A DNA stretch of 31,747 nucleotides from a virus, in the IMG/VR virus record IMGVR_UViG_3300033977_000072, positions 1 through 31,747 of that record, one strand, 5' to 3'. A program made the translations under genes and the position numbers. Position 1 is the first letter of the stretch. Every line of letters begins with the position of its first letter. Below are positions 4,212 to 26,064 of this stretch, one piece after another. Below the pieces are notes generated by a model. It had not been told where the DNA came from and made no database searches. It worked only from the letters and a program-made list of their open reading frames with translations.

Positions 4212-4226
4212 CTGCACAGTGTGCAG
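4212..4226. promoter_or_regulatory. Intergenic 15-bp palindrome, copy 1
   Basis: CTGCACAGTGTGCAG is a perfect 7+1+7 inverted repeat. It lies directly against the TAA stop of the ClpP-like gene (4227) and 10 bases before the start of the membrane protein at 4201. It matches the copies near 7.78, 8.87, 12.42, 18.93, 26.05 and 31.55 kb. Likely an operator, a promoter part or an RNA hairpin; the function is inferred. Confidence 0.7.
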
Positions 4227-4823
4227 TTATTTTACCTCGTCAACAAGTCCATATATTAAAGCCTCTTCCGCAGAAAGCCAAAGTTCATTCTTTTTTATAG
4301 CCTTAAGAACCTCGTCAATAGGCTTTTTAACTCGATCTGCAATAATCTGGGCCAGCATGGTGTTGAGTTTACCAAGTTCACGGGCCTCTTCTTCTGCTTG
4401 TGTTGCGGTAGACTCATCAAAGAACTTGAATTTACTGACTTCATGAAGTAAGAACCGTGTGCTTTTCCATGCAATACGCCTTGTACCAGCTTGAAGAACA
4501 ATGTTTGCCATCGAAGCGCAAAGCCCCAAAACCTCTACATTAACGGGCGTTCCTTGACTACGCGCACGAAGTATAGCATTATGAATTACAAAGCCGTCAT
4601 AAACATCCCCACCAGGACAATTAAGAATTACTGTAATTGGTGCCTTTGAGTCTTCACTAACCAAGTAATTGAGTTTAGTAAAAAACGGCTCATCTTCTGC
4701 ACTTACAGAAGTACAAACTACAATAGTTCTGGTTTTAAGCAAGCGAATATTTAACTTATCATAAAATCGAAGGGGATCATGGACCAGTTGTTCCTCTTGA
4801 TCGTCGTCAGCAATGTTTTTCAT
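4227..4823 (-). CDS. ClpP-like serine protease (S14 family)
   Basis: 198 residues from the ATG at 4823, chosen because AGGAGT lies 6 bases upstream; an open frame continues to 4877 without such a signal. It shows the ClpP/crotonase fold landmarks LNCPGGDVYDG (68-77), the nucleophile region GLCASMANIVLQAG with Ser104, and FLLHEV with His127. The position equivalent to the third catalytic residue (Asp before NF in ClpP) reads Glu180 in NELWLSAEEA. The end YGLVDEV is typical. ClpP-like proteins in phages often act as prohead proteases, but this gene sits among tail and membrane genes, far from portal and scaffold. Its target is therefore uncertain. Confidence 0.85.
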   Translation of the reverse strand: MKNIADDDQEEQLVHDPLRFYDKLNIRLLKTRTIVVCTSVSAEDEPFFTKLNYLVSEDSKAPITVILNCPGGDVYDGFVIHNAILRARSQGTPVNVEVLGLCASMANIVLQAGTRRIAWKSTRFLLHEVSKFKFFDESTATQAEEEARELGKLNTMLAQIIADRVKKPIDEVLKAIKKNELWLSAEEALIYGLVDEVK

Positions 4824-4831
4824 GTTGACTC

Positions 4832-5445
4832 CTATAATGATGTAACTTGATTCCAAGTCTGTGTTTTTCCATTCCAAACTTCTACGTTGTTTCCATTTTT
4901 TCTATAAATCTGAGGATAACCTGCTGTTTGCGGGTCGGCTATTTCTCCCATAAGATCAATAACTTCATTAAGTGGGTCATCGCCTATTACCAAAATTATT
5001 GGGTCAGCTTGTGCATTAGTAGAACTTGGGTCTGTATTAGTTACAGTTGTAAATAACAAACCAACTATAAACTGTGTTGCTGTGGTAATGTACTTTGTAA
5101 CTTGTGCTTTAGCCCAACCTATAAGACTTGTAATAAATGTCCCAGTAGTGGCTTGTCCTTCATCAAAACCAAGTTCTGCCAAAGTACCAAAAACAAGAAC
5201 AAGTGCATCACCTTCTGTACTAGGAATTTGAAAACCTGTAGTAGAAGATTCTCCTAATATTATAATAATAGCCGCCCCAGAACCAGTAGGAAAATTAAAA
5301 GTACAAAGTGATCCTTCTCCATACGGAGAACTTATTCCAGTTCCACTACAAACGGGAGCGTTCTCTCCACTCGCACTTGAATCGCCCGAGGCAGTGCTAT
5401 TACCAGCCCCAGATATTGATAGGTAATTCCCGCTGTTGCTGCCAT
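4832..5445 (-). pseudogene. Beta-rich structural-type protein with a 5' frameshift
   Basis: A long frame ends at 4832. It is open far upstream of any usable start, encoding for example GAGNSTASGDSSASGENAP and PTGSGAAIIIILGES. The only ATG with a ribosome binding site (GAG-TGAG, 7 bases away) is at 5445 in the neighbouring frame, and it hits a stop after 37 codons. One missing base within the first ~12 codons would join both into ~204 residues. I see no canonical -1 slippery heptamer at the junction. A sequencing or assembly indel, or a recent mutation, is most likely. The C-terminus (VEVWNGKTQTWNQV) resembles the ends of the paired genes at 19.7-20.3 kb. Confidence 0.6.
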
Positions 5446-5461
5446 ATTTTTACTCACTCAT

Positions 5462-5520
5462 AAAAAAAACGTAATAGATAGAGATAGCAAATTTATCAAT
5501 GTAATTCTGTATCTATACGT
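5462..5520 (-). terminator. Probable intrinsic terminator
   Basis: Read on the minus strand, a roughly 10-bp AT-rich stem (ACGTATAGATA with TATCTATTACGT, one bulge) is followed at once by eight T. It begins just after the stop of the 57-residue gene at 5524 and precedes the frameshifted gene. The loop is long (~27 nt), so stability is moderate. Confidence 0.5.
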
Positions 5521-5523
5521 ATC

Positions 5524-5697
5524 TTAAAGATGAATTTCTTCCTCAAAAATTAATCCAAGTTTTTTATGTACATACTTAAAATGAATTGAATGGGGAAGTA
5601 CTTCGTTTGCTATTCGTTCAATCTTATCTGGGGATGACTGGGCAAGCCGTTCTGCGATTGCCTCAATAAGTTCACCCAGGACGATCTGTTTAGTCAT
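5524..5697 (-). CDS. Small acidic/amphipathic protein, unknown
   Basis: 57 residues, starting MTKQIVLGELIEAIAERL. It is charged and mostly helical with no membrane segment and no motif I recognise. The ATG lies 2 bases after the upstream stop at 5700 without its own Shine-Dalgarno, so translation is probably coupled. A T-rich hairpin follows the stop, marking the end of this transcription unit. It is real by position and codon continuity; function unknown. Confidence 0.5.
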   Translation of the reverse strand: MTKQIVLGELIEAIAERLAQSSPDKIERIANEVLPHSIHFKYVHKKLGLIFEEEIHL

Positions 5698-5699
5698 GA

Positions 5700-6014
5700 C
5701 TAGCGCAGGCAGTTTTTCAATGCATAATGTGCGGCTTTTTGATTGGCTTCCTCTACCGACATGAAATCCTCGTGGGGAAGATAACCAAAAGTTTTTCGAT
5801 ATTCATTTGGTCCCTTTGGACCATCTAAGTAAAACACCGTCTGATGATAGACATGAACAATATCTAGATTATTTGCACGGCATGTAAAAGTCATGTCAAA
5901 CGCAGTTCCCTTAGTATAAACAGGAGATTTTGTTTTGGAAACTGCTACTGCAAACACCCCTAAAACCAGGCCAATCAGAGAAAGTTCTATAACTAATCTT
6001 TTTAGATTACCCAT
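5700..6014 (-). CDS. Small exported or membrane-anchored protein, unknown
   Basis: 104 residues; GGAG lies 8 bases before the ATG. The N-terminus has a Lys-Arg pair followed by a hydrophobic run (residues ~8-26, VIELSLIGLVLGVFAVAV), a signal anchor or uncleaved signal. The remaining ~75 residues are polar and would lie outside the cytoplasm, with two Cys. The gene sits in a run of small unknown genes between the HNH gene and the frameshifted structural-type gene. No family recognised. Confidence 0.55.
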   Translation of the reverse strand: MGNLKRLVIELSLIGLVLGVFAVAVSKTKSPVYTKGTAFDMTFTCRANNLDIVHVYHQTVFYLDGPKGPNEYRKTFGYLPHEDFMSVEEANQKAAHYALKNCLR

Positions 6015-6016
6015 AA

Positions 6017-6184
6017 TTATTTCTCCGTAAAAGTTGAATTAGAAGTCTCTGTCATTACACAGCCTGCCAAGGCCAGTTTAAGATATTCAAAGACATATTG
6101 GTCTTTGGAAATAAGTTGCTTAAGTTCAGGATGATCCTGGACTAAGTTAATATAGTTAGCAACTGCGATATCGACGTAATTCAT
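6017..6184 (-). CDS. Small helical protein, unknown
   Basis: 55 residues, starting MNYVDIAVANYINLVQDHP. It is predicted helical, without membrane segment or motif. The start overlaps the stop of the HNH gene as ATGA and the stop lies 2 bases before the start of the exported protein at 6014, so it is embedded in a coupled run. Function unknown. Confidence 0.5.
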   Translation of the reverse strand: MNYVDIAVANYINLVQDHPELKQLISKDQYVFEYLKLALAGCVMTETSNSTFTEK

Positions 6185-6600
6185 AGCTCACCTCGCCTAC
6201 GCATAAGGTCTTTCTTTAACTGATGATTAGCGCACAAGGTTTGAAACCTCGGAGGAAATCCCTCTTTTCTAAGGCGTCCATAAAATGCCACGCCAGAATA
6301 TCGGCGCCCAGTACGACGATCTCCTGCCCCAGAATTATCTACATGATCTAAGGTTAGCATGTCAATGTCAATAACATTGCATTCAGGCCAAGAACATTGT
6401 AATACGCCGTTAGGTCCATAGTAAGTGAGAACTTGAATCTTAGTTTTAATATTGTAAGCACGGCTTAATTTATTAAAATGATTTGCCTTGCTTAGTCTAT
6501 ATAATCGTTTGCGTTCTTTATATTTTTCTCGATATACAGGATCAATAGCATATTTTTCACGACGGCGAGCCTTGTCATATTCTTTATTTTTGTACGGCAT
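6181..6600 (-). CDS. Free-standing HNH endonuclease
   Basis: 139 residues from the ATG at 6600, with GGAG 6 bases upstream. The first ~45 residues are very basic, likely DNA-contacting. A Cys pair in LQCSWPEC (69, 74), TLDHVDN (His86) and LCANH (Cys123, Asn125, His126) form an HNH/treble-clef core. It is a paralogue of the gene at 16459-16875, sharing DIDMLTLDH exactly. Such enzymes are often homing endonucleases lodged between phage structural genes. Unlike its neighbours it has its own consensus sigma70-type promoter (6618-6646), fitting an autonomous mobile gene. Confidence 0.85.
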   Translation of the reverse strand: MPYKNKEYDKARRREKYAIDPVYREKYKERKRLYRLSKANHFNKLSRAYNIKTKIQVLTYYGPNGVLQCSWPECNVIDIDMLTLDHVDNSGAGDRRTGRRYSGVAFYGRLRKEGFPPRFQTLCANHQLKKDLMRRRGEL

Positions 6601-6617
6601 TTTATTCTCCAACTATT

Positions 6618-6646
6618 ATTATAGCAAAATCCAAATTCTATGTCAA
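6618..6646 (-). promoter_or_regulatory. Consensus sigma70-type promoter of the HNH gene
   Basis: On the minus strand TTGACA (6646-6641), a 17-bp spacer and TATAAT (6623-6618) form a perfect consensus. The predicted start is ~15 bases before the HNH ribosome binding site. It would let host RNA polymerase express the nuclease early, independent of the surrounding late genes. Confidence 0.8.
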
Positions 6647-6668
6647 TACCACAACTAATAGTAGTATA

Positions 6669-7727
6669 TTAAAATGCAGGCCCAATAGGTTGGCTAGCAT
6701 TGGGCCAATACGTATCGCCCCCTTGTAAAATAGAAGCATATGGATACATTAATGCCGTATCCCGCGTTCGATCCATTGATATCTTACTTTCCTTAAGTGA
6801 TTTTTCCCACAACTGCACAGAGTCAGCATGTTTAGCTCGAACTTTCGGGTCTGGAACCATGCCATAGAAAATTGCAACCATACCATCCATAAAAGAGGGA
6901 GCAAAATCATCTGGAATAGGATCAATCATTTGACCAAGTAATGTAAATTGGGGTGGTCGCATTTGATAAACTGGAAAAATCTGATAAGGTACAGCTTGCT
7001 GAGGAGGTAATGGACCAAGACGAAAACCCCAATTAAACGGACCTACGGCTACCCACACGGCTGTACCGTCTTGTACTGTAGTTGGTGCTATATTAGGTTT
7101 TTGATACGTAGGATAAACTGGATTGGTAGGCCAGGTTGGGGGAGAAGTACCAAGAGTAACAGTTGCACAATTATTGGGGAAGGTCAGAACCCAAAGATTG
7201 CCATTAGGGTCTTTAACATTGAAAATAGGATTAGCTGCGGCTGAAATTAATAAACCAAAGGGATTTAAAATGATCTGACCGGGTTGCGGATTTTGAATAC
7301 CGGCTGTACCTACTCCTGTAGCTCCCCAAGTACCGTATTGAAGGTCTTTATTAAGAAGAACACAGATTTGACCGGGGCGTCCATATTGGTGAGTGGTTTC
7401 CGGCATGTTTTGTACAGCTTCAAGTTCCCAAATAGGCCTCGGATTACAGGTGTTGTTAATTTCCAGGAGGTAGCCGTTTGTTAAAAAGCCAACATCAACA
7501 ATATTGGTGGGATAGTCTTGTTGCCAACTGTTGGTAATTCCAATGGGAAGAACCTTACGATTAAAGTTCCACTTCAAATGTGAAGATAAGAACTTCTTCA
7601 TGACAGCGTTAGCACATTGCAACACGCGCTTGGTGCTGTAACCTACAGTTGGGATAACACTCAGAAGGTCGGGGAATGTCTGACAATAGTCAAGACAGTC
7701 TTGTAGACGAGTGGTTGAATTGCCCAT
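6669..7727 (-). CDS. Putative head-tail adaptor-like structural protein
   Basis: 352 residues; AGGA lies just before the ATG. The N-terminal ~50 residues look helical and include many Cys/Lys/Leu. A Pro/Asn/aromatic-rich beta region follows (~60-270), then a helical end. It shares its motif order with the 248-residue product at 495-1241 (GFLTNGYL, YGRPGQI, IPDDFAP, F..G..A..Y), so the two are paralogues. The extra ~100 residues lie between the GRP motif and the C-terminal part. It follows the palindrome at 7781-7795 and may head its own unit. An adaptor or tail-tube role is suggested by layout and position only. Confidence 0.6.
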   Translation of the reverse strand: MGNSTTRLQDCLDYCQTFPDLLSVIPTVGYSTKRVLQCANAVMKKFLSSHLKWNFNRKVLPIGITNSWQQDYPTNIVDVGFLTNGYLLEINNTCNPRPIWELEAVQNMPETTHQYGRPGQICVLLNKDLQYGTWGATGVGTAGIQNPQPGQIILNPFGLLISAAANPIFNVKDPNGNLWVLTFPNNCATVTLGTSPPTWPTNPVYPTYQKPNIAPTTVQDGTAVWVAVGPFNWGFRLGPLPPQQAVPYQIFPVYQMRPPQFTLLGQMIDPIPDDFAPSFMDGMVAIFYGMVPDPKVRAKHADSVQLWEKSLKESKISMDRTRDTALMYPYASILQGGDTYWPNASQPIGPAF

Positions 7728-7780
7728 AATTTCCTACACGTAGAGCGTACTATTCAGGGCACCATTTAAGGTCGCCCCAT

Positions 7781-7795
7781 TTGCACAGTGTGCAA
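7781..7795. promoter_or_regulatory. Intergenic 15-bp palindrome, copy 2
   Basis: TTGCACAGTGTGCAA, a perfect inverted repeat around one base. It directly abuts the TAA stop (7796) of the coiled-coil gene and lies 53 bases upstream of the adaptor-like gene. Same core as the other six copies. Confidence 0.7.
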
Positions 7796-8365
7796 TTACG
7801 CCCGTTGGATAGTGCCCGGAATCTTAACTTTTTGCCCATTCTCAAACAATTCAAAAATGATTGGAATAGGACCTTTCAAACCCTTACGAGGTTTCTTTGC
7901 AATTTCAACAAATTCCTCTGGGCTATGTTCATAACTAACGGTGCGATTGCAACGAATGCAGCGATATACCTTACGACCCAAACTATCAGTCTCTTCTTGA
8001 TAAGTGCTTTGAACACCATCACCAAGGAAAAGTCCATCTAGGCCCTCACCACCTTGGGAGTGGTTACAAATTGCCTGTTCGCGTGCTTCTTTTGCAAGCC
8101 TAGCTTTTTCAGCAACAACTGCGTTCTTAAGCTTTTGCTGAATAGCTTTGCGTCGTTGAGCAAGATCAAAGGCTTGCATCTTAAGAGCTTCCAATTGCTC
8201 TCTTTTCAATTCTAGCTCTTGCTCTTTAATCTGCGCATCGAGTTCGGCAGACTTAGCTTCAGCTTCTTTACGCCGTAATTCAGCTTCAGCAGCTTTAAGA
8301 GCAGCCTGATCGATCTGTTCTTGTACATCTTTTGAGACTTTCACCTTATCTGTATTTTCAGACAT
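7796..8365 (-). CDS. Coiled-coil protein with C-terminal zinc-binding-like motif
   Basis: 189 residues; AGGAAGGA precedes the ATG by ~7 bases. Residues ~10-98 are almost uninterrupted Glu/Lys/Ala/Gln heptads, a long coiled coil. The C-terminal ~90 residues contain AICNH (Cys and His) and YRCIRCNRTVSYEH (C-x2-C), which could hold one zinc ion. There is no signal peptide or membrane segment. It lies between the decoration-like gene and the adaptor-like gene, so a virion or assembly role is plausible but not shown. Confidence 0.6.
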   Translation of the reverse strand: MSENTDKVKVSKDVQEQIDQAALKAAEAELRRKEAEAKSAELDAQIKEQELELKREQLEALKMQAFDLAQRRKAIQQKLKNAVVAEKARLAKEAREQAICNHSQGGEGLDGLFLGDGVQSTYQEETDSLGRKVYRCIRCNRTVSYEHSPEEFVEIAKKPRKGLKGPIPIIFELFENGQKVKIPGTIQRA

Positions 8366-8447
8366 TGGTATTCCTTCCTTTGAGGATATTTACCTCGTGT
8401 GAATTAGTCCATGATAGGTTCAAGGACAAACCTTATTTGAATGCAAA

Positions 8448-8465
8448 GGGGAGCTTAAGCCCCCC
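8448..8465 (-). terminator. Probable intrinsic terminator
   Basis: GGGG-A-GC-TTAA-GC-CCCC hairpin; on the minus strand it is followed by a short TTT run. It lies 30 bases after the decoration-like gene, in a 129-base intergenic region, and would end that unit. The U-tract is short. Confidence 0.45.
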
Positions 8466-8494
8466 AAGCCGTCGAATAGTTTTCTTACTAAGTC

Positions 8495-8854
8495 TTACGC
8501 ACCTTGCTGCGCCGCAATTACATAGCCGTTTACTGTGCCAGTAGCAGATACATCGAGTTGTAATGCATTATTCATTGTTAAAGCCTTGCCGCCCATAATG
8601 TCCGGGAATACAAGTTTATCTACAAATGGTGTTCCTGCTAGTAAAGCCGGGGTACGTAAAACTTCATTAGTGCCGTCTTTAAAAATGATTTCTCCAGCTA
8701 CGCTTAAACTTAAAGCGTAAGCAAGAACAATAATTCTAACGCCAGATGATCCTGCTAGAATCGACACAGGAGTTCCAGCAGTGATAGATTGCGCTGGAAT
8801 ATTGATATAGACTAATGGAAGCTTTCCAATAAGGTTAATTACGTTGCCAGTCAT
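8495..8854 (-). CDS. Small beta-rich virion protein, possibly capsid decoration
   Basis: 119 residues, nearly all predicted beta strand, rich in Val, Ile, Ala, Gly and Thr. There is no charge cluster, membrane segment or signal peptide. Landmarks are VAGEIIFKDGTNEVL, TPFVDKLVFPDIMGG and a closing ALQLDVSATGTVNGYVIAAQ. This strand-turn pattern is common in small phage capsid-associated or fibre-base proteins. It lies just past the capsid gene cluster, directly behind palindrome copy 3 and followed by a terminator hairpin. It may thus be a single-gene unit made in large amounts. The decoration role is inferred. Confidence 0.55.
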   Translation of the reverse strand: MTGNVINLIGKLPLVYINIPAQSITAGTPVSILAGSSGVRIIVLAYALSLSVAGEIIFKDGTNEVLRTPALLAGTPFVDKLVFPDIMGGKALTMNNALQLDVSATGTVNGYVIAAQQGA

Positions 8855-8864
8855 ATATTATCCC

Positions 8865-8881
8865 ATTGCACAGTGTGCAAT
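8865..8881. promoter_or_regulatory. Intergenic palindrome, copy 3 (17 bp perfect)
   Basis: ATTGCACAGTGTGCAAT, the longest perfect copy. It abuts the stop of the small basic gene (8882) and lies 10 bases before the decoration-like ATG. On the minus strand the right arm runs into TGGGATAAT, resembling an extended -10 box. Confidence 0.7.
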
Positions 8882-9079
8882 TTATTTCGAATGCTTCATG
8901 AATGTGAGTGCGAGCCGCGCCCTGCGACCACGAATTCCACCTTCATGCTTGTGGGCTTGCGCATAAGCCCGAGTAGACATGCCCGCCCGTTTTGCAGCCT
9001 TAGAAAACACGCCTTCGGTGCCCCGGCGCTTGATGCCCTTTGCGATCTTGGTTAGGGGTTTCTTAACTTTCTTTGCCAT
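8882..9079 (-). CDS. Small basic protein
   Basis: 65 residues, very rich in Lys, Arg and Ala; GGAG lies 6 bases before the ATG. The core reads AGMSTRAYAQAHKHEGG followed by RGRRARLALTFMK, a pattern I have seen in small phage proteins of unknown role. It likely binds nucleic acid because of its charge. It is adjacent to another basic mini-protein at 9093-9251, and both lie between the capsid and decoration-like genes. A packaged, DNA-associated or assembly role is possible. Confidence 0.6.
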   Translation of the reverse strand: MAKKVKKPLTKIAKGIKRRGTEGVFSKAAKRAGMSTRAYAQAHKHEGGIRGRRARLALTFMKHSK

Positions 9080-9092
9080 GATGTTCTCCGTA

Positions 9093-9251: not shown

Positions 9252-9267
9252 GGTATTTCTCCATGAA

Positions 9268-9753
9268 CTAAATTTGCGCCCCAGATATACTAAGAACGCC
9301 CTGGTTGCCCAGGCCTAAATAGTGGACAGCTATACGTTGTAACCATGCCTTAAATTCTACTTCTGTATAGGAATTCTTGGCTTCATTACACATTTGACAA
9401 CACGTTCTTATGTTGCCAATAATATAGCCCTTAGAATTATCAATCCTGTCCAGACCACTACCACGTTTTGGCAATGGACTTCCACAGTAATAACATTGAT
9501 TTGTCGAAATAAGTTTTGTGTATTGTTGTAAGGTTATTCCAACTTCAAAATTTCGTACTTTAGCAGACCGCAAAAGAATAGAAAATCTTCCATTTACAGT
9601 TGCATCATAAATATGTTTTTTGTCAAGAAGAATTTGTCTATTTTCAACATATCGTTGGCGTCTTCTTGCAAGATAATTTTCTCTATGTTCTTCTTGCCAA
9701 TGTTTAGTATTTAAATTACTTCGTTTGCGTTGTTCTTCAGTATGTTTATACAT
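9268..9753 (-). CDS. HNH endonuclease (phage type)
   Basis: 161 residues from the ATG at 9753, with GAGGAG 6 bases upstream. The basic, Arg/Gln-rich N-terminal part is followed by CYYCGSPL, GLDRIDNSKGY, GNIRTCCQMCNEAKNSY and EF..WL. This is the classic phage HNH domain with two Cys pairs holding zinc and a DR.D catalytic region. It belongs to a different HNH subfamily from the two at 6181 and 16459. It lies directly after the major capsid gene, a common site for homing endonucleases. Confidence 0.85.
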   Translation of the reverse strand: MYKHTEEQRKRSNLNTKHWQEEHRENYLARRRQRYVENRQILLDKKHIYDATVNGRFSILLRSAKVRNFEVGITLQQYTKLISTNQCYYCGSPLPKRGSGLDRIDNSKGYIIGNIRTCCQMCNEAKNSYTEVEFKAWLQRIAVHYLGLGNQGVLSISGAQI

Positions 9754-9780
9754 AGTATTCTCCTCGATAAAATACTGGAA

Positions 9781-9801
9781 GGGGGCAATCGAGGTGCCCC
9801 C
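9781..9801 (-). terminator. Probable terminator after the major capsid gene
   Basis: GGGGGCA / TGCCCCC, a perfect 7-bp stem with a 7-base loop; on the minus strand AGTATTTTAT follows. It lies in the 268-base region between the capsid stop (10022) and the HNH start (9753). The rest of that region holds only a 27-codon frame (9830-9913) behind AAGG, too short to call. Confidence 0.5.
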
Positions 9802-10021
9802 CTCACAGATGACAGAGACCAAATTGCTCTTACCAGCATTTGATACTCTGGGCACCACCTGGGGGTAAGCGCGGGTATGCCAGAAAATTACGAAGTCCAG
9901 TTAGTACTGCCATACTAACCTTTCTTCGGGAACTCGTGACTGGCAGGCCACTTATTCCAAAAATGGTATTCTATGAAAAATTGGATTGCGGTAAAATCTC
10001 CACACTCCCACTTTATGAGTT

Positions 10022-11050
10022 TTAGCTCAAATTGGAAGTTGCGTCGATAAACCTAAGCCTACCAGTAGTATCGGGCGGAAGGGTAGCAACGAACTTCACG
10101 TTATATGAGGTCCATCCACCAATTACACGGGTTGGATCGCCTACTGTTGGCTCAGTAGGTTTCATAATCCATATTTTCATATTACTCCAATCGCCTTCAC
10201 CAATCTGAGCATTCTCTTTCACGCCCAGGCTGATGCCTACGACTGCCTGATGTCCATACAGGTACGTCCGGTAAGCAGTTGCGGCTGCGGACGCATAGTT
10301 AGATGTGGTTGTGACGAGCGGCGATTCATAGAACCGCATCCCGCCGAATTCCAGAACCGGAACCACATGGTCTTTACCATCCCCACCGGGCATATCCAGT
10401 AGGCGGTCCAAACCTTCGATTGTATGTTTATAAACATCGACCAGACTGTTATTAGTCGAGTCGTTGATTACATCACCAATCGATAGGGGCGAAATTACGC
10501 CGATCATACGATTTGCGGCCTGGTCAAATGGGAGAACCGACCGTTGACGGAGTTCCTGAGTAGCAGCAGTGAGATCAGGGCGGGTCAAGGGCGATCCAGA
10601 TGCCTTGGGTGTATATACGGAAGTATCAATGGCGTTGGCACCATCAGATTGATTCCGAATCAACAGAGAGATTGTCCCAGCGAGCCGGTAGCACATCTCT
10701 TTCTCAAGGTTTTCCACACAGGGGTCAATTGCGGTTTCCAGAGCGTAATCGGAAACGTTAACATAGTCAGCGTACTGACCAATGACTGCCGAATCCGTAG
10801 ACACTGCCGGGGCCTTACCAGCCACAACTGTACCTTCAGAAGCCTGAGCAGTTGAAAAAGCGATGCCCAAACCCGCTTGGTACATATACAGCCGGTGGTT
10901 CTGACCTGACTGTGGGGGCAACTCACGCCGCTCAATGCAACGATAGTAAGGCGTAAGCTGTTTCAGGTTTTGGATGAAGTCACGGTCAAAATAGGTAGCC
11001 TGTGATTGAGGCAGATTTGACACGAGACCCGAAGTCGGAGAATAAGACAT
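10022..11050 (-). CDS. Major capsid protein, N4-gp56 family
   Basis: 342 residues; AGGA lies 8 bases before the ATG. The N-terminus has YFDRDFIQNLKQLTPYYRCI, and LPPQSGQ then follows. SEGTVVAGKAPAVSTDS leads into VIGQYADYVNVSDY. Together these form the usual opening of N4-gp56-family capsid proteins, which have the HK97 fold. Later YLYGHQAVVGISL, a KIWIMKP strand and a GWTSYNVKFVATLPP strand fit the C-terminal domain. The length is near the family norm. It directly follows the scaffold gene and is closed by a strong hairpin at 9781-9801. Confidence 0.85.
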   Translation of the reverse strand: MSYSPTSGLVSNLPQSQATYFDRDFIQNLKQLTPYYRCIERRELPPQSGQNHRLYMYQAGLGIAFSTAQASEGTVVAGKAPAVSTDSAVIGQYADYVNVSDYALETAIDPCVENLEKEMCYRLAGTISLLIRNQSDGANAIDTSVYTPKASGSPLTRPDLTAATQELRQRSVLPFDQAANRMIGVISPLSIGDVINDSTNNSLVDVYKHTIEGLDRLLDMPGGDGKDHVVPVLEFGGMRFYESPLVTTTSNYASAAATAYRTYLYGHQAVVGISLGVKENAQIGEGDWSNMKIWIMKPTEPTVGDPTRVIGGWTSYNVKFVATLPPDTTGRLRFIDATSNLS

Positions 11051-11067: not shown

Positions 11068-12351
11068 CTAAACTTTAGTCCTGAACCGCTTAATTCTGTC
11101 AAGTTTAGCCCGAAATTCTGGGTCAGACTTGATTTTGGTTTTCAGAACTGAAAGCGGCATTGCATCAACTTCCTTAAGGAACGCAATGTCCTCTGCCTGA
11201 CGAGTTACGGGAGGTTCACTCTGACCGTGCTCGGTAGACATTGTGGAAAAGCGTGTCCCCCTCAGCCTTGGCTTAGGCGTAACGGGTTCTGTATTTGCAG
11301 TCTCCGTAACGGTGGGTGCAGGAGTGGCTGTAGCTGGTGTCTCCTGGGAAGTCCGCTCAGCGCTATTTGGCGCAGGAGTCGGTTCCAAAACTGGTGCTGA
11401 TGCTGTTTTTACTTCCACAACCGTAGGTGCATTCTCACTTACCGGTTGTGCTGGAGTAGCTTCGGCGTTTAGTTGAACTGGAACGAGTGTACCATTATCG
11501 ACTAAATCGTCATAGACGATCTCCAAATTATGAGCCGTCCAACCGAATGTCTTGCCTTCGGTTGCGGCAGCGTCCTTACGTCGAGTCATCTCTTCTATCA
11601 TGGCTTGCTTTGAAGCAACGCCTTTAGGAAAATCGGGATGCTCGGCCAGAAATCTATTGGTTTCGGCTGTGCTTCGTGAAAGTCCAAGTTGTTCTGCTTC
11701 CTTAGCACGTCGTTCACGAACTTGTTCAGGGGTTTCACCAAATTGTGCTTTGTATAATTCGGCATAACCCTGTTCCATTGTTTCCGGGTCTGCAAGTAAG
11801 CGCGCAACCCTGATTTTGTCATCTGTGCTCAGGGGCGACGGTTCAAACATTAAAACATTGATTTCCTCATCATAGACTCGGTTCTTAAGCCGTTCTTTCT
11901 TGATTTTGATGGCAGCTTTCTTGTTAGCTTCAACCAACTGGTCAGCTAAATTTTCATAGGCCTCAGATAATGTTTTACCCTTGCCTACAAATCGACTTGG
12001 AGGACCAACTGGTTTACCGTCTTCATCCTTGGCTTGCCAGTCTCGGGTAACTGAATACTCCTGGGGGACTGGAGGTGTAGGGGGTACTGGCGGTGTCGGA
12101 AGCGCTTCTGGCGTGGGCTGTGGTACAGGCTCAGCAGTCGGGGCCGTTTCAGTTGACTCTGTTGTCGGTGCCGGGGTCTCCGGTGCTGTTTCTGTTGGCG
12201 ACTCAACAGGTTTTCCTTGGAACTGCCCTTCGTAATCGAATACATTGCGGGCTGTTTGTCGGGATTTAACTGGTTGTTCACCTGGAACAACGGGCGCTGG
12301 TTCTGGCGCTTCTTGTCCCGTTAATATCATTACATCCATTGGGTCTGGCAT
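11068..12351 (-). CDS. Putative scaffolding/capsid assembly protein
   Basis: 427 residues from the ATG at 12351, with GGAG 6 bases upstream. Residues ~15-100 and ~280-350 are low-complexity Pro/Thr/Glu/Ala-rich linkers. Between them (~105-270) lies a charged helical region containing AYENLADQLVEANKKAA and many Glu/Lys pairs. The C-terminus is basic and helical (LDRIKRFRTKV), as in scaffold proteins that dock on capsid subunits. Acidic, extended, helical proteins directly upstream of capsid genes are typically scaffolds. No sequence motif proves it. It follows palindrome copy 4. Confidence 0.65.
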   Translation of the reverse strand: MPDPMDVMILTGQEAPEPAPVVPGEQPVKSRQTARNVFDYEGQFQGKPVESPTETAPETPAPTTESTETAPTAEPVPQPTPEALPTPPVPPTPPVPQEYSVTRDWQAKDEDGKPVGPPSRFVGKGKTLSEAYENLADQLVEANKKAAIKIKKERLKNRVYDEEINVLMFEPSPLSTDDKIRVARLLADPETMEQGYAELYKAQFGETPEQVRERRAKEAEQLGLSRSTAETNRFLAEHPDFPKGVASKQAMIEEMTRRKDAAATEGKTFGWTAHNLEIVYDDLVDNGTLVPVQLNAEATPAQPVSENAPTVVEVKTASAPVLEPTPAPNSAERTSQETPATATPAPTVTETANTEPVTPKPRLRGTRFSTMSTEHGQSEPPVTRQAEDIAFLKEVDAMPLSVLKTKIKSDPEFRAKLDRIKRFRTKV

Positions 12352-12420
12352 AGTTATCTCCATCGGGCCATTCTGCCCTATTGAAATCGGTGATATTGGT
12401 CACCGTCTTGCATAGACCGT

Positions 12421-12435
12421 CTGCACAGTATGCAG
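12421..12435. promoter_or_regulatory. Intergenic palindrome, copy 4 (one mismatch)
   Basis: CTGCACAGTATGCAG; one base breaks the symmetry of the TGCACA/TGTGCA core. It is 10 bases after the stop of the 184-residue gene (12446) and 69 bases before the scaffold start, the farthest of the intergenic copies. The scaffold/capsid pair lies behind it. Confidence 0.6.
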
Positions 12436-16458: not shown

Positions 16459-16875
16459 CTAATCCATCCGATTTTCTCGGCGTTTTAACATTTCTTTTTT
16501 ACATTGATGGTTCCAACATAAAGTTTGAAAAATATTTGGAAATCCTTGTTTTTTAGCATTTCTATAGGCAATACTTCCACAATTTCTTTCTCTATGTATT
16601 GAAATGCTTCTTCGATGCTTAGCGCCATCATTATTGATATGGTCAAGTGTTAACATATCAATGTCATTAACTTCACAACCAGGCCAGCAACATTGAAGTT
16701 TTCCATTTAATCCATAATGAGCTAAAACTTCAATTTTTAAGTTAGCATTAAAAGAGTTCATTCTTCTTCTATTACAAACTAAACAACGTTTTATGAAACA
16801 TTGTTTACCGCGTTTCATACGCTCAATATAAACATTGCCTTTGGTCAATTTATGACCATACTTACATATTTTCAT
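16459..16875 (-). CDS. Free-standing HNH endonuclease
   Basis: 138 residues; GGAGGG precedes the ATG. The N-terminus holds a small Cys/His cluster (CKYGH, then CLVC at 31-34), likely an extra zinc finger. The HNH core has CCWPGCEVND, TLDHINNDGA (His79) and LCWNHQCKKE (Cys120, Asn122, His123). It is a clear paralogue of the gene at 6181-6600 across the core, but the N-terminal parts differ. It is lodged between the terminase terminator and the portal, a typical homing nuclease site. It has no consensus promoter of its own that I can see. Confidence 0.85.
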   Translation of the reverse strand: MKICKYGHKLTKGNVYIERMKRGKQCFIKRCLVCNRRRMNSFNANLKIEVLAHYGLNGKLQCCWPGCEVNDIDMLTLDHINNDGAKHRRSISIHRERNCGSIAYRNAKKQGFPNIFQTLCWNHQCKKEMLKRRENRMD

Positions 16876-16902: not shown

Positions 16903-16932
16903 GGGGCGTCTGTGGAGGGTACAGAACGCCCC
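16903..16932 (-). terminator. Intrinsic terminator after terminase
   Basis: GGGGCGT-CTGT pairs with ACAG-A-ACGCCCC (11 bp, one bulge) around a 7-base loop; on the minus strand TAATTATTTT follows. It lies 31 bases after the terminase stop and just before the HNH ribosome binding site. Confidence 0.7.
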
Positions 16933-16962: not shown

Positions 16963-18909
16963 TTAAATATATGGGTCTCCCAATGGAAGGCCAGTTACCG
17001 GGTCTAACTCAACTTCTGGTTCTGGTTCTTCTTCCTTAATTTTTTCTTCTTTGGGTGGCTCTACGTAAGCATATCGACCTTGCCCATATATCATATCGTA
17101 AAGTTCTTTTTCTCGAAGGTCCTGACGTTGTTTTATTTTTTCTGCTTTGTCTTCCGGTGATTCTACTCTGCTTCTATACTCTAGAAGACGTGCTACAGCG
17201 TCAGGAATGTCTTTCTTGCCTCTTACAGAGCAGAACTGCTTCATGACATCTTCAAAATCCGTTCTAATATTATCAAGAAAAAAAAGGCGGCCACTTTTGT
17301 AAAGGGGCACCAAACCTTTAATACGGGTGTCTTTTGCGTCTTTCTCACCCTGCCCTAATGAAATCCACTCAATTATAGGAAGTTTAACACCCTGAGCTTC
17401 AGCTAAACGGTAGATGTCGTTCTTTAACCACTTCGCCCCTACTGAGTCTTCAATTCCTAAGATTTCAAGTTCAGGGTAATCCCGAGCAATTCCAACGATT
17501 TGCTCAGCCATTTCTTCGGGTTTGATTCTTCCACAAACTATGTCCTTTACCCAAAGAGCATCGTTATACCAGGCACCTACTGCCATGACGGTGAAATCAC
17601 GACCCCGCTTATCTGAATATGCCAAATCAATAATGCCGAATGTCTTGGCATACAGCGGCATCCTAGTCCACTCAATCTTGCACTTGAGCATTCCCTCGCG
17701 GGTAAAGTCCTGCTCTCCAGCCAAGATAGGGTTATTGAGATACTGAGATGCGTGTGATTTCGGGTCAAGACGCAGGTCGGCAATCAAACCCTCATACGGC
17801 CAAAGTTCTTCATCAAGATAACCACATTGCTCTTTTGTACAATCCTTAGTGGGGGGCAAATATGTACTTCGAAGATCGCCCTCATCATCTGGGCCAGTTC
17901 CTTTTAACCACCAAGCGGGCTTACACAGGTACTTAAACGTACCAGGAATATCTTTATCTTGACTTCTTCGTTCAATAAGACCATAGGGAACATCGTCTTT
18001 AATCCCCATTTTCTTCATTAAACGACCATAGGTATCATCCCCATCGTACCTGGTGCCAATAGTATCGCGGTAGCCCCAACCAATAGGCAAGAGCTTGCGA
18101 CTCATATGAAATCGCCGGTCAATACCTTCCATCCTAGCAGGAGAAGTAGTGTTTTTATCTGTCAGGATGTCGTCGTTCTTCATTACTTCGCATCGCCAAC
18201 CAGTGTTATTGCTTTCGATTGACAATGCATACACCGTAGGGTCTTTGATATGACGGTGTTTTGGGTTAATACTTACTAATTGCCGCGCCGGAGTTACCCA
18301 ATAATCCTGGGCGCCCCGTTCTTTACCAACCTCGGCAGTACAATGTTCTGGATAAAGAAGGTGGAATCTATTAGGGCGTGCCTTCTCATTCCATACTGGC
18401 TGATCTTTATCATCTCGTATGCCATCCCAACCTGGAACCAAGAAATAACTTTTAATAAGGCCTACAATGGCCTCTGCTAGGTCGCTATCTCCGGTTTGAA
18501 TCGCAATACAAATTAAAGGAAAACAAACAATCCAATTAACAGCATCTAAAGCATCAATTGTTGTTTTCCAAGCAAATCTAGGAAAAAGTAGCAAACGTTC
18601 ACGAATAGGGTCTTGATCTTTAATATCTTTATCCGGGTCTTTATGAATAAAGAAATCACACATCTCTTCGTGAAGAGGACGAAGCGGAACTTCACAAAGT
18701 TCCGTAGACATCAACCAAAGGTCTTTCTTATAAACTAACTTAAGTTTTTCGTAATCACCTGGATATTCTTGTTTAAATATCTGTATGTCTTTAAGTTCAT
18801 CTAGATAATCAAGTTTACTAGTTCTAACATTAGTACACCATTCACAACGACACGGAGAAGTCTCATTTTCTACCCACCAAATACCAGTATGACCTACGTG
18901 TTCTCTCAT
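16963..18909 (-). CDS. terL: Terminase large subunit
   Basis: 648 residues. The ATPase motor has a Walker A of the terminase type, LLLFPRFAWKTTIDA, with Lys115. IAIQTGD and further coupling segments follow. The C-terminal nuclease carries GIIDLAYSDKRGRDFTVMA (first metal-binding Asp), ILGIEDSVGAKW (second acidic site) and IPDAVARLLEYR (third Asp). The N-terminus has an unusual cysteine group, CRCEWC (20-25), that might hold a metal. The tail is Glu/Pro-rich. The protein cuts and pumps DNA into the prohead through the portal. The gene follows palindrome copy 5 and ends in a strong terminator. No small subunit is obvious next to it. Confidence 0.93.
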   Translation of the reverse strand: MREHVGHTGIWWVENETSPCRCEWCTNVRTSKLDYLDELKDIQIFKQEYPGDYEKLKLVYKKDLWLMSTELCEVPLRPLHEEMCDFFIHKDPDKDIKDQDPIRERLLLFPRFAWKTTIDALDAVNWIVCFPLICIAIQTGDSDLAEAIVGLIKSYFLVPGWDGIRDDKDQPVWNEKARPNRFHLLYPEHCTAEVGKERGAQDYWVTPARQLVSINPKHRHIKDPTVYALSIESNNTGWRCEVMKNDDILTDKNTTSPARMEGIDRRFHMSRKLLPIGWGYRDTIGTRYDGDDTYGRLMKKMGIKDDVPYGLIERRSQDKDIPGTFKYLCKPAWWLKGTGPDDEGDLRSTYLPPTKDCTKEQCGYLDEELWPYEGLIADLRLDPKSHASQYLNNPILAGEQDFTREGMLKCKIEWTRMPLYAKTFGIIDLAYSDKRGRDFTVMAVGAWYNDALWVKDIVCGRIKPEEMAEQIVGIARDYPELEILGIEDSVGAKWLKNDIYRLAEAQGVKLPIIEWISLGQGEKDAKDTRIKGLVPLYKSGRLFFLDNIRTDFEDVMKQFCSVRGKKDIPDAVARLLEYRSRVESPEDKAEKIKQRQDLREKELYDMIYGQGRYAYVEPPKEEKIKEEEPEPEVELDPVTGLPLGDPYI

Positions 18910-18928
18910 TTAAAACGCCTATCATTAT

Positions 18929-18943
18929 CTGCACACTGTGCGA
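18929..18943. promoter_or_regulatory. Intergenic palindrome, copy 5 (opposite centre, one mismatch)
   Basis: CTGCACACTGTGCGA: the centre base is C rather than G, so this copy is inverted relative to the others, and one arm carries a G. It abuts the stop of the 177-residue gene (18944) and is 19 bases before the terminase start. On the minus strand the arm runs into GATAAT. Confidence 0.65.
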
Positions 18944-19477
18944 TTACACTTTTGGTAAAGATTCCGTTTCTGGCGCAGGTCTATTAACACTTGTTCCAAG
19001 ATGCGCAAGTAAATTACTCAGATCGGTTTCTCCATCCTTGCCATCAGGAATTACATTAGTTTCGTCGGGCTTCATTCCAGCCTCATATGGTCTATGAAAA
19101 TGATGAACTAGATGTCCACCTGGATGATGCTGAATATGTGTAGCGTGAACTAGCCGCTTGAATTTCGTTGGTTTTGTTTTTCCTTCAAGGGGTTTTGCTA
19201 CCTCGTCGGTTTTTTTATCTGCCATTTCTTTATCCTTAACTTCCTCTGTACTAACAACCTTTTCGCCTTTATGTAATTTATAAAGGCCAGTTTTCTTAAC
19301 TTTTCCGCCCTTTTCCATACTAGGGAGTAATGCTGATTCTATATTTCCTCCGCTTATTGTTCCTGGAGTACGAGTATTGGAGACTGGTTTAATTTCAATG
19401 GGCGCCGGTTCACCAAATTTATGAGATACAGGAACGAGGCCCACAGAATGAAGAATAGTTGGGGTTGGAGTAGGCAT
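18944..19477 (-). CDS. Unknown protein with His-rich segment
   Basis: 177 residues; AAGGA lies 7 bases before the ATG. The N-terminus is Pro/Thr-rich. Residues ~55-75 contain EKGGKVKKTGLYKLHKGEKV, resembling short structural-protein segments in phages. Residues ~105-135 are His-rich (HATHIQHHPGGHLVHHFHR), which could bind metal. There is no membrane segment. It lies directly before terminase, in the place where a small terminase subunit often stands, but it shows no helix-turn-helix and its composition does not suit one. Confidence 0.55.
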   Translation of the reverse strand: MPTPTPTILHSVGLVPVSHKFGEPAPIEIKPVSNTRTPGTISGGNIESALLPSMEKGGKVKKTGLYKLHKGEKVVSTEEVKDKEMADKKTDEVAKPLEGKTKPTKFKRLVHATHIQHHPGGHLVHHFHRPYEAGMKPDETNVIPDGKDGETDLSNLLAHLGTSVNRPAPETESLPKV

Positions 19478-19478
19478 A

Positions 19479-20358: not shown

Positions 20359-20395
20359 AACACCAAACCCTGACCAATGGTGAGGGCAAGGTGTT
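20359..20395. other. Long intercistronic hairpin
   Basis: AACACC/GGTGTT outer stem, an AAA/CAA internal loop, CCCT/AGGG and then ACC/GGT around an AAT loop. It reaches into the TAA stop of the gene at 20395 and fills most of the gap to the gene starting at 20329. No T-tract follows, so mRNA stability or attenuation is more likely than termination. Confidence 0.5.
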
Positions 20396-21372: not shown

Positions 21373-21373
21373 A

Positions 21374-22186: not shown

Positions 22187-22443
22187 AATGCTAACCATAC
22201 CTCGTCTTCGAAGAGAACAAGCAAATCACGTTCATCTCCTGGAATAGTGATCTGAAATCCAGACCACTTTGGATACAAAACTTTTTGCCCTGGCTTCCAA
22301 GTAGTGACCTCAGAACCCACCTCAATAACTGTTCCAAAATCGGGACGCTCACGCATCACGTCTGGAATCTTAAATCCTGCTTCGGTTGTTTTCTCGGGGG
22401 CAGGAAATCTCTCAATAAGAACTTTATTTTTTCCAAGAGTCAT
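22183..22443 (-). CDS. groES: GroES-like co-chaperonin
   Basis: 86 residues against 97 in E. coli. It has the family order: KNKVLIERFPAPEKTTEAGF (strand and mobile loop), FGTVIEVGSE, then KPGQKVLYPKWSGFQITI and a closing LVLFEDEVWLAL. The stretch that forms the roof hairpin in E. coli GroES is reduced to VTTW, a shortening also known from T4 gp31. It caps the GroEL ring. It starts 2 bases after the GroEL stop, so both are co-expressed, and it overlaps the protease gene by ATGA. Confidence 0.85.
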   Translation of the reverse strand: MTLGKNKVLIERFPAPEKTTEAGFKIPDVMRERPDFGTVIEVGSEVTTWKPGQKVLYPKWSGFQITIPGDERDLLVLFEDEVWLAL

Positions 22444-22445
22444 GG

Positions 22446-24065: not shown

Positions 24066-24173
24066 ATACTCCAAAATAGAATCGGGGCGCATTACAAAAA
24101 GCAATGTGCCCCGTTTACGGACTGAGCATGGTGTTTCGCTTTATCGTGAGTCTCTGCTTCTAACTCACCAAAC

Positions 24174-24428
24174 TTATTGTTTAGGCCCGTTGCCATTCTG
24201 CCAAGATGGGTGCGAAGTGATAACCTCGGCGCCTTTATGTAGTGCGTAAATCGAGGTACAAAACAAAGTTCCACTTGACCAATCTGGCATTTGGTTAGTT
24301 TTCAAAAGAACGTGAATGCCGCAGTAGAATACAACAATCAAGCAAGCAACGAAAGCCAATTTGCCTAAATCAAGATTTCCGTCCTGGTTAGAAAATACTT
24401 TCTTAATACCGGCGAGAATCTTTTTCAT
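24174..24428 (-). CDS. Small membrane protein, candidate holin
   Basis: 84 residues; AGAGGC lies ~6 bases before the ATG. Lys-rich N-terminus, a strong membrane segment at ~24-42 (LAFVACLIVVFYCGIHVLL), and a weaker second one around 53-68. It is the last gene of the lysis run that begins with the endolysin, so a holin or antiholin role fits. No family motif proves it. A 34-codon frame (24092-24196) overlaps its end and touches the alternative GroEL start, but is not called. Confidence 0.5.
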   Translation of the reverse strand: MKKILAGIKKVFSNQDGNLDLGKLAFVACLIVVFYCGIHVLLKTNQMPDWSSGTLFCTSIYALHKGAEVITSHPSWQNGNGPKQ

Positions 24429-24437
24429 AGCGCCTCT

Positions 24438-24746
24438 TTAGAGTTTAAGGGCTTTCTTTACGTCTGCGACAGCATTTTCAAGCAATGTCAACCGATCTTT
24501 TACATCCTTCTCAACCGCAGCTAAATGAGTCAAAACATCGGCTTTTACTGCGTCAAGTTCGGCCTTTGCATCAGATTTTACTTTTGCAACTTCGCCCAAA
24601 ACGAATTTTAAAAGTTCAGCCCTATCAAAATCAACCTTAGCTTCAAAATCTTTGAGTTCCTTTTCAACTTTAGATTTCAGGGCGTCCTCAACCTTTCGCA
24701 GTTCACCAAGTAAGAATGTTTCAAGTTTTTTTAATTCTTCAAGCAT
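24438..24746 (-). CDS. All-helical coiled-coil protein
   Basis: 102 residues, entirely heptad-like Leu/Lys/Glu/Val, starting MLEELKKLETFLLGELRKVE. AGGAG lies 7 bases before the ATG. There is no membrane segment and no Cys. It lies between the spanin-like and holin-like genes. It could be a cytoplasmic lysis regulator or a structural protein; nothing specific is recognised. Confidence 0.5.
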   Translation of the reverse strand: MLEELKKLETFLLGELRKVEDALKSKVEKELKDFEAKVDFDRAELLKFVLGEVAKVKSDAKAELDAVKADVLTHLAAVEKDVKDRLTLLENAVADVKKALKL

Positions 24747-24755
24747 GATTTTCTC

Positions 24756-25487
24756 CTATTTTAAAATAAATGCAACGATCCCGCCTCCAATGCTAAGACC
24801 ACGAAGAAACCAAGATCGTTTTGATTTTTTCGCTTCAGTCTTAATAAGGTTTACCTGGGCTGTGCAGGCCTTAGCTTGGGCGTCTAGTTCATTATGAAGA
24901 CCAGCAATAAGTGTATTGGAATTTGTAATACTGTCGGCCTGCTTGGTAATGATAATGTCTTTTGAATCTGCAACTTGTTTCCAATTATCTCTGTCCGCCT
25001 GCGCCGCAGGAAGCTCAGTAAGGGCGGTAACTGTAGCCCGTGTGACATTTCCAGATACAGTGACAGTGCCCCCGGAATTAGTTGTGAACTCCGCAGCCGT
25101 AACATTAGGAATAAGTGCTTCCCAATTTTCTACAACCGATGTAATGGGCGCTGTTTGAATCTCTGCCAGGGTTTTTGAAAGTTGCGCATCACGCGCCTGA
25201 ATACCTTGTTCAAGCTGTGCTGCTAAGGTTTGTTGTTGTACAATGGTTGCTTTCAAATCATTAATTTGCGCAATCAAATTTGTTTCTTTGTCAGTGTCTT
25301 TTTGATGTTGAGCTACAAGGGCCTGAGTTGCTGTATCAGATTCCTTGCGAGCCTTATCAATAGTGTAACTAAGCCAACCGCCCCAGCACTTCCAAATAAG
25401 TACGGCGGCTACAGCACCAAGAAAAAGAGTCTGATGTCCTTTTATAAAAGTAACCCAATTATGAATGACAGGTTTTGTTTCAGCCAT
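24756..25487 (-). CDS. Spanin-like lysis protein with two end membrane segments
   Basis: 243 residues from the ATG at 25487 (GGAG 6 bases upstream), overlapping the endolysin end by 8 bases. Membrane segments lie near the N-terminus (~20-35, HQTLFLGAVAAVLIW) and at the extreme C-terminus (FLRGLSIGGGIVAFILK). Between them is a long coiled coil (~45-115) with a Thr/Val-rich middle module. Position directly after the endolysin and the anchored coiled coil suit an Rz-like inner-membrane spanin. The C-terminal anchor is unusual for one, and no lipoprotein partner is obvious. Confidence 0.55.
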   Translation of the reverse strand: MAETKPVIHNWVTFIKGHQTLFLGAVAAVLIWKCWGGWLSYTIDKARKESDTATQALVAQHQKDTDKETNLIAQINDLKATIVQQQTLAAQLEQGIQARDAQLSKTLAEIQTAPITSVVENWEALIPNVTAAEFTTNSGGTVTVSGNVTRATVTALTELPAAQADRDNWKQVADSKDIIITKQADSITNSNTLIAGLHNELDAQAKACTAQVNLIKTEAKKSKRSWFLRGLSIGGGIVAFILK

Positions 25488-26034
25488 TGTCTTCTCCAAG
25501 CATAACTAAGAATTTCTCAGCATACTCGGCAATTCGATCTGCCTGGTCTAAACCATTAATAATGCGCCGAGCCTGAACAAAATCAAGAGCGTTGTTTATG
25601 TTGACTGCATTACTTGAAAATCCCAAGCCTGTGAAAAGCCCTTGCCGCATTCCTAAAGATGTAATCTTGTAAGAGACATCTGAAATCAAGGCCAACTCAG
25701 GATGATTTACTAAGTCTAATCCGAGCAATTTACTAAATTGATTATAGTTAGCCTTCCAAGTAATTTGAACAAATCCCCGCCCATAGTAAGTTTGCCCAGT
25801 TTCAGGGTCAGGAATTCCATAACTATAACCGGCGCCCTTTCCATATTCTTCAACCGGGGCAAAAGTAAAGGCAGTTTCATGGCGCACTGTCGCTAACAAA
25901 TATGCAATTTGGCGAGGATCGCTAAGTTCCTGGTCTTCGGCAATGAATTGCAAAAGCTGCCTGAAAGTGGCTTCGTGAGAAAGAGGGGGCCAGGGATAAC
26001 GTTGTATAAGTGTGTCGGCTGATACCTTTAACAC
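25480..26034 (-). CDS. GH19-type (chitinase-like) endolysin
   Basis: 184 residues from the GTG at 26034, chosen because GAGG lies 9 bases upstream; the ATG at 26049 directly abuts the palindrome and has no ribosome binding site. VRHETAFTFAPVEEYGKG (catalytic Glu53 and a second Glu) and YYGRGFVQITWKANY are typical of GH19-family phage lysozymes, which cut the glycan strand of peptidoglycan. A conserved opening (VSADTLIQRYPWPPL) begins just after the start. No signal peptide, so release needs a holin. It is followed by a spanin-like gene. Confidence 0.85.
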   Translation of the reverse strand: MLKVSADTLIQRYPWPPLSHEATFRQLLQFIAEDQELSDPRQIAYLLATVRHETAFTFAPVEEYGKGAGYSYGIPDPETGQTYYGRGFVQITWKANYNQFSKLLGLDLVNHPELALISDVSYKITSLGMRQGLFTGLGFSSNAVNINNALDFVQARRIINGLDQADRIAEYAEKFLVMLGEDNG

Positions 26035-26049
26035 GCTAATAAACCTCAT

Positions 26050-26064
26050 TTGCACAGTGTGCAG
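26050..26064. promoter_or_regulatory. Intergenic 15-bp palindrome, copy 6
   Basis: TTGCACAGTGTGCAG, one outermost mismatch, core perfect. It lies 15 bases upstream of the chosen endolysin start. No gene ends beside it; a 190-base non-coding leader lies upstream, so here it cannot be explained as a stop-linked feature. Confidence 0.7.

Follow-up and report, generated by a model that had tools for sequence, protein, structure and literature searches.

The stretch of DNA analyzed here, referred to as the window, comprises all 31,747 nucleotides of IMG/VR virus record IMGVR_UViG_3300033977_000072 and is a 31.7-kb fragment of a soil phage genome. It carries tailed-phage genes for terminase, portal, scaffold-like, capsid, adaptor, GroEL/GroES-like, and endolysin proteins, along with three HNH genes, and nearly all of these genes point leftward. 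The element in question is a 13-bp palindrome, TGCACA-S-TGTGCA (S is G or C), that recurs in the gaps between them. Five copies are exact, against an expectation of 0.00 from the shuffled window, and two more, at 12422 (TGCACAGTATGCA) and 18930 (TGCACACTGTGCG), have one mismatch each, giving a total of seven palindromes of the form TGCACA-N-TGTGCA (Table 1). Among all 4096 hexamers, TGCACA is the commonest palindrome arm in the window. Read on the minus strand, which encodes the flanking genes, six of the seven copies are AAY-TGCACACTGTGCA-R. A search with the flank pattern AAY...RATGRG gave no matches.

All seven palindromes are intergenic in a window with 10 to 12% intergenic DNA (P about 4e-7), and each lies upstream of a leftward gene. 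A TAA stop codon stands 1 to 2 nt before four of the copies and 11 nt before a fifth. The initial annotation had described six intergenic copies and a seventh inside a gene. The intergenic copies are real, although two of them are not exact, and the positions given for them were one or two bases low because flanking bases had been counted. The seventh copy, at 31544, had been placed inside a gene through an artifact of calling the longest open reading frame (ORF). The most probable start codon of ORF 31319-31633 is the ATG at 31519, which lies downstream of the palindrome and is preceded by a perfect Shine-Dalgarno sequence, AGGAGGG, and the corrected 66-amino-acid product matches phrog_19873, a 65-amino-acid family, over its full length. 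The same annotation had held that the repetition exceeds chance, that the copies precede plausible units, and that hairpin terminators lie at 8448, 9781, and 16903; shuffles gave 0 copies, each palindrome does precede a leftward gene, and the terminators are present.

Table 1. Palindromes, downstream genes, and terminators in the window
Feature	Position	Strand	Remarks
Palindrome 1	4213..4225	-	Exact; TGCACACTGTGCA on minus strand; gap of 1 nt to stop codon of 4227-4832 and of 11 nt to start codon of 3875-4201
Palindrome 2	7782..7794	-	Exact; gap of 1 nt to stop codon of 7796-8365 and of 54 nt to start codon of adaptor-like 6669-7727
Palindrome 3	8867..8879	-	Exact; gap of 2 nt to stop codon of 8882-9079 and of 12 nt to start codon of decoration-like 8495-8854
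Palindrome 4	12422..12434	-	One half-site variant, TGCATACTGTGCA; 58-70 nt before start codon; precedes scaffold-like 11068-12363 and major capsid gene
Palindrome 5	18930..18942	-	CGCACAGTGTGCA; 1 nt after TAA stop; 20 nt before terminase start
Palindrome 6	26051..26063	-	Exact; precedes endolysin gene, which starts at a GTG 16 nt away or, alternatively, at an ATG 1 nt away
Palindrome 7	31544..31556	-	Exact; intergenic; 24 nt before ATG at 31519
Small membrane-type protein	3875..4201	-	Downstream of palindrome 1
Adaptor-like structural gene	6669..7727	-	Downstream of palindrome 2; conserved in relatives
Decoration-like small protein	8495..8854	-	Downstream of palindrome 3
Scaffold-like gene	11068..12363	-	Downstream of palindrome 4
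Major capsid protein	10022..11050	-	Second gene after palindrome 4
Terminase large subunit	16963..18909	-	Downstream of palindrome 5
Endolysin (GH19)	25480..26034	-	Downstream of palindrome 6
66-amino-acid protein, full-length phrog_19873	31319..31519	-	Downstream of palindrome 7; start corrected
Intrinsic terminator	8448..8465	-	3' of decoration-like gene
Intrinsic terminator	9778..9804	-	3' of capsid gene
Hairpin, intrinsic-terminator-like	16903..16932	-	3' of terminase gene

The palindrome is dispersed in unrelated phages

In the form AAC-TGCAYANTRTGCA-GTT, the palindrome is also dispersed in phages that are unrelated to the window phage. An exact search that included part of the flanks returned eight viral contigs, three of which (G059, G060, and G055) hold several copies. 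The consensus across these three is a 19-bp palindrome, AACTGCAYANTRTGCAGTT, and searching with it brought in further contigs. The number of carriers is a lower bound, since they were found by exact patterns, and because they were ascertained by the motif their copy numbers, but not the intergenic placement, are biased upward. G059, an 87-kb contig with 61% G+C content and a tail-sheath gene, has no detectable protein homology to the window phage; five of its seven sites are intergenic, and one site lies between two convergent genes. When nine phage contigs were pooled, with the window excluded, 30 of the 40 exact sites proved intergenic (P about 2e-17), and the Markov-expected number of exact copies was about 0 per genome. 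Genes outside the annotated sets of G059 and of the cultured phage Tunturi_4, described below, were called with a simple custom script.

Placement is conserved as well. The soil myoviruses G059, G063, G069, G070, G071, and G061 have sites at the same place before the same late genes, and at one late gene of G059, G069, and G063 the site is kept and the DNA further than about 25 nt upstream is unrelated. The carriers share an order of stop codon, palindrome, Shine-Dalgarno sequence, and start codon, as in TAA-AC-CGCACAGTGTGCA-gttGGGATatcaATG in Tunturi_4 and TAA-AC-TGCACACTGTGCA-gtcGGAGGGttATG in G059, with start codons mostly 9 to 26 nt downstream of the site. Among 51 sites, with orthologues collapsed, 25 have half-sites of the C/C type, 25 are C/T, and one is T/T. 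The variation is symmetric, one half reading TGCAC and the other TGCAT in either orientation.

Tunturiibacter phage Tunturi_4 (PP885687) is an 88-kb siphovirus and a cultured isolate with a cultured host. When at most one mismatch is allowed, its genome contains 20 sites, where the control gave zero. Of these, 14 are exact copies, 10 of which are intergenic by custom gene calls (P about 5e-6). Typically, 16 to 26 nt separate a site from the start codon that follows. Sites are found in the early as well as the late regions, so that the description of the downstream units as late, apt for the window, is too narrow. The site at 15134 matches the window site at 18930 both in its one-base variant and in its stop-site-start layout. 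Tunturi_2, 3, and 5, which infect the same host genus, lack the palindrome. The Tunturi_4 genome is of the temperate type, with an integrase and the helix-turn-helix (HTH) proteins ORF97, ORF104, and ORF105. In the passages of the Tunturi virus paper matched by term search, lytic infection is reported and integrases are noted, and a repeated operator is not mentioned (PMC11924767). An HTH protein of G055 is homologous to ORF104 and ORF105, and in both phages these genes adjoin the DNA polymerase gene and are flanked by sites. These site-flanked HTH repressors, ORF104 and ORF105 of Tunturi_4 and the G055 protein, are candidates for the palindrome-binding protein. Two Tunturi_4 leaders, at about 58326-58410 and 59912-59990, share a longer duplicated block (TGTAATGCGGCGA...hairpin...site...ATCCCATAA-TGGAG), and some sites have therefore been copied with a whole leader.

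Host chromosomes and integrative elements

The host of the window phage is probably an acidobacterium, because the capsid relatives are found in Tunturiibacter phage Tunturi_3, the closest named relative (42% capsid identity), and in a Candidatus Sulfotelmatobacter metagenome-assembled genome (43% identity). The genomes of 41 relatives of the latter, about 190 Mb in total, gave 17 matches to the exact core, almost all of them within genes. Across 299 genomes of the class, the longer pattern is present as a single copy in 17, against roughly 22 matches expected from simple composition, and as four copies in three. The copies inspected in those three genomes are intergenic, and most are in or near integrative elements. 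Several lie directly upstream of tyrosine integrases, in one case three in a row, or among Xis-like and RepA-like genes; the two copies on contig 16 of G310 have no integrative-element context. In light of the chance-level counts in chromosomes and the integrative-element context of the four-copy genomes, the palindrome belongs mainly to mobile DNA.

Homologous relatives of the window phage

The gene order of the window is kept in contigs that fall in its capsid cluster and have 64 to 66% identity in portal and adaptor proteins, but the palindrome is missing from their homologous gaps. Scans with the terminase, capsid, and adaptor proteins for closer relatives returned only capsid-cluster relatives with at most 86% capsid identity, and these were without sites. 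G002, a near-complete genome of 92 kb, has one near-copy, TGCACAGTGTGCG, at 60371, where it heads the late operon. TGCACA is also the top-ranked arm for near-palindromes in G002, with six against a mean of 0.21. These near-palindromes have a drifted consensus, yTGCAYACTTTGCA, and many lie within genes and on both strands. We take them for a decayed or altered set, although the evidence is only suggestive. Near-identical strains of G002 show too little variation for footprinting. The initial annotation had counted absence from close relatives with conserved flanking genes as evidence against a role for the palindrome, and most homologous gaps of G002 do lack it. We read this absence as site turnover and not as missing function, because the element is kept in place in another phage group, the myoviruses, and recurs in unrelated phages.

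Several other features were seen in these relatives. The leader of the scaffold gene, GGGCAGAATGGCCCGAWGGARRTRACTTATG-like with a short hairpin (window 12351-12390), is conserved in L010/G002, and the remainder of that gap is unrelated. Distant capsid relatives have palindrome arrays of their own, in L084 (509-2162), L087 (75-734), and L072 (919-1090), with the sequences TCTGCTTAAAGCAGA, ATACTCCGAGTAT, and TGAGCGATCGCTCA; each array is clustered in one early region and is perhaps an origin or a set of operators. In both L015 and L016, the alignment at the matched place covered only capsid residues from 96 onward, so the capsid gene may be interrupted by an intron or a homing insertion. A poorly coding region of G002 (49151-51361) holds an element, CGGCTTGCCGCATTA, repeated six times in about 2 kb.

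A proposed operator for a dimeric regulator

The initial annotation had named three candidate roles, an operator of a phage regulator, the upstream part of a late promoter, and an RNA hairpin, and had drawn a parallel in kind with the stoperators of phage L5. The parallel stands, and the first role is the most likely. We judge it somewhat better than an even prospect that the palindrome is a DNA operator for a dimeric, sequence-specific regulator of an Acidobacteriota pool of phages and integrative elements. The palindrome probably recruits a regulatory protein not yet described. Its symmetry, the fact that either half-site may be the weaker one, the presence of sites on both strands and between convergent genes, and the lack of promoter elements together point to a DNA-bound dimer, the dimeric state being suggested by the symmetry of the palindrome. 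We infer that binding blocks transcription and does not activate it. A repressor or roadblock would account for operator clusters before integrases, for sites within operons, and for the site between convergent genes in G059, which suits a roadblock and not a promoter.

In the window phage, the palindromes follow one gene's stop codon and precede the next gene's Shine-Dalgarno sequence, heading each leftward unit. Under this proposal, a protein bound at a palindrome would keep RNA polymerase out of the unit or halt its progress there, in the manner of the L5 repressor at its stoperators. Once the protein was released, or another regulator took over, expression of the late units could proceed, and the terminators 3' of the capsid, decoration, and terminase genes would set the 3' ends.

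Several points weigh against an operator. The homologous gaps of G002, with about 65% portal identity, are without the palindrome, and the gene set of G002 is of lytic type, with no integrase or HTH repressor found, which does not suggest an immunity system there. No regulator family common to all palindrome-bearing lineages was found, and the ORF104 family was not found in G002, G059, or G060. Intergenic placement may partly reflect a 13- to 19-bp site and a Shine-Dalgarno sequence just filling the gap between packed genes. The only proteins that cluster across at least three carrier lineages are an integrase and a DNA polymerase, and both are also present in the palindrome-free Tunturi_3. 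A SWIM zinc-finger protein, considered as a common factor, occurs in G002 and G059 and was not found in the other carriers.

One putative operator sequence is present in unrelated podo-, sipho-, and myovirus-type phages and in integrative elements. A tentative and rather speculative extension is that one resident regulator might keep many different incoming elements silent, or adjust their activity, by acting at many sites in each, as a genome-wide form of cross-element immunity or a timing code. If one regulator does read sites in several elements, this would be a case of immunity across unrelated phages. Palindromic roadblock operators, if confirmed, would extend this mode of control to a dominant soil phylum and would provide the first regulatory signal for the largely unannotated phages of Acidobacteriota. 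The operator proposal is directly testable, because both Tunturi_4 and its host are in culture.

Alternative explanations

A late promoter element, which would mark the transcription starts of late units and be recognized by a phage activator or by RNA polymerase modified by the phage, is an unlikely alternative. All window copies precede units on one strand, terminators lie 3' of several units, and one site is retained before the late operon of G002 at 60371. Six of the seven copies also share an AA at two to three bases before the palindrome and a G at four bases after it, and such asymmetric flanks would be in keeping with a directional element. However, no sigma-70-like pair with at least 9 of 12 matches was found near 21 sites in three phages, although perfect pairs exist elsewhere in the window, and start codons are often just 11 to 16 nt away, leaving almost no space in which a promoter core could follow. 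Early genes of Tunturi_4 are preceded by sites as well, and other sites lie between the convergent genes of G059 or within genes. A T7-like RNA polymerase (PF00940) was not found in the window fragment or G002, in a search whose control also gave no signal.

It is improbable that phages exploit the binding site of a host regulator. Such a site would explain why the same sequence is found in unrelated phages of one host phylum and why a common phage regulator was not detected. The counts in acidobacterial chromosomes, however, are at chance level, on which ground we rejected a host regulon as the main explanation, and Tunturi_2, 3, and 5 infect the same host genus and are without the site. Nor is the palindrome a LexA box: it is in none of five acidobacterial lexA upstream regions, three of which show a repeated TTCGC motif instead.

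An RNA element, that is, a short hairpin directly upstream of the Shine-Dalgarno sequence that tunes translation or mRNA processing, is very doubtful. The palindrome does lie between stop codon and Shine-Dalgarno sequence in many phages, and perfect copies could form a stem of 6 to 8 bp with a 3-nt loop. These hairpins are weak, at -5 to -8 kcal/mol, and for two of the seven sites (12422 and 31544) the fold predicted is not this hairpin; moreover, what is fixed is the sequence rather than the pairing. Among independent intergenic cases, mixed half-sites would give U.G versus C-A in the transcript about 6 to 5, with no RNA-strand preference, and U-A/U-A is nearly absent. Sites between convergent genes and in integrase promoter regions also argue against a role in RNA. 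A mobile repeat of the repetitive extragenic palindromic (REP) kind, spreading by insertion and tolerating intergenic DNA only, would fit the site turnover between relatives and the position close behind stop codons, but its probability is close to negligible, as the site is only 13 to 19 bp, no flanking duplication was seen, no transposase or RAYT-like gene is common across the lineages, and the site sequence is kept in place between diverged myoviruses with changed flanks.

Promoters and other genes in the window

Promoters of the form TTGACA-17-TATAAT, perfect or near-perfect and with TG before the -10 hexamer, lie at 6618-6646 and 26662-26690 on the minus strand (perfect sigma-70-type promoters, read as 6646-6618 and 26690-26662) and at 26703-26731 on the plus strand. 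The first drives the HNH gene 6181-6612, and the other two are divergent at about 26.7 kb. The three HNH endonuclease genes (6181-6612, 9268-9753, and 16459-16875) are free-standing in gaps of the structural cluster, some directly 3' of terminators. A 128-amino-acid family is conserved between the window (26257-26643) and G002 (18684-19067), just upstream of the late operon and with a perfect sigma-70 promoter before it. The window member is all-helical in a low-confidence model (predicted local distance difference test [pLDDT] score, 62). By eye it resembles sigma-factor region 2, but we dropped this reading, because comparisons by family, sequence, and fold lent it no support and the model was of poor quality.

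Comparison with known systems

In the literature searched, we found no mention of the palindrome sequence or of stoperators in acidobacterial phages. The promoters of the N4 virion RNA polymerase are hairpins with a short stem and a 3-nt loop. Unlike these, the palindromes lie on both strands and between convergent genes, and a virion RNA polymerase is missing in the near-complete G002.

The KorB operators of IncP-1 plasmids are 13-bp palindromes, TTTAGC-S-GCTAAA, found at several promoters of one mobile element and read by one regulator (PMC2680271). The shared length and G/C center make a formal parallel, but the sequence is different and the acidobacterial sites are not beside recognizable promoters. 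KorB is a ParB-family protein, and none was seen here, although no search was aimed at that family. In Cluster K mycobacteriophages, the start-associated sequence (SAS), GGGATAGGAGCCC, contains the Shine-Dalgarno sequence, is not palindromic, and lies 3 to 7 bp from the start of non-structural genes only, and the accompanying extended SAS (ESAS) carries an inverted repeat that its authors read as a protein-binding site (PMC3203893). Both systems place a repeated element immediately upstream of start codons. The palindrome differs from the SAS in sequence, in lying upstream of the Shine-Dalgarno sequence at 9 to 70 nt from the start, and in also preceding structural genes.

The stoperators of Cluster A mycobacteriophages such as L5 and Bxb1 are asymmetric 13-bp sites, present in about 20 to 30 copies per genome and oriented with transcription, and the immunity repressor that the phage itself encodes binds them and blocks elongation (PMC6550527, PMC9283540). 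The acidobacterial palindrome resembles them in its 13-bp core, in copy number (20 in Tunturi_4 and seven in the 32-kb window), in its placement mostly in short intergenic gaps, and in being common to several related elements with sequence variants. It differs in being symmetric with no visible orientation requirement, half-site variants occurring both ways, and in its sequence and host phylum. By analogy, it would work most like a Cluster A stoperator, but we do not file it as one because asymmetry with orientation, a defining feature, fails. Dispersed roadblock operators are already known in actinobacteriophages, and what is new here is a palindromic version, if it acts as proposed, in unrelated Acidobacteriota phages and integrative elements.

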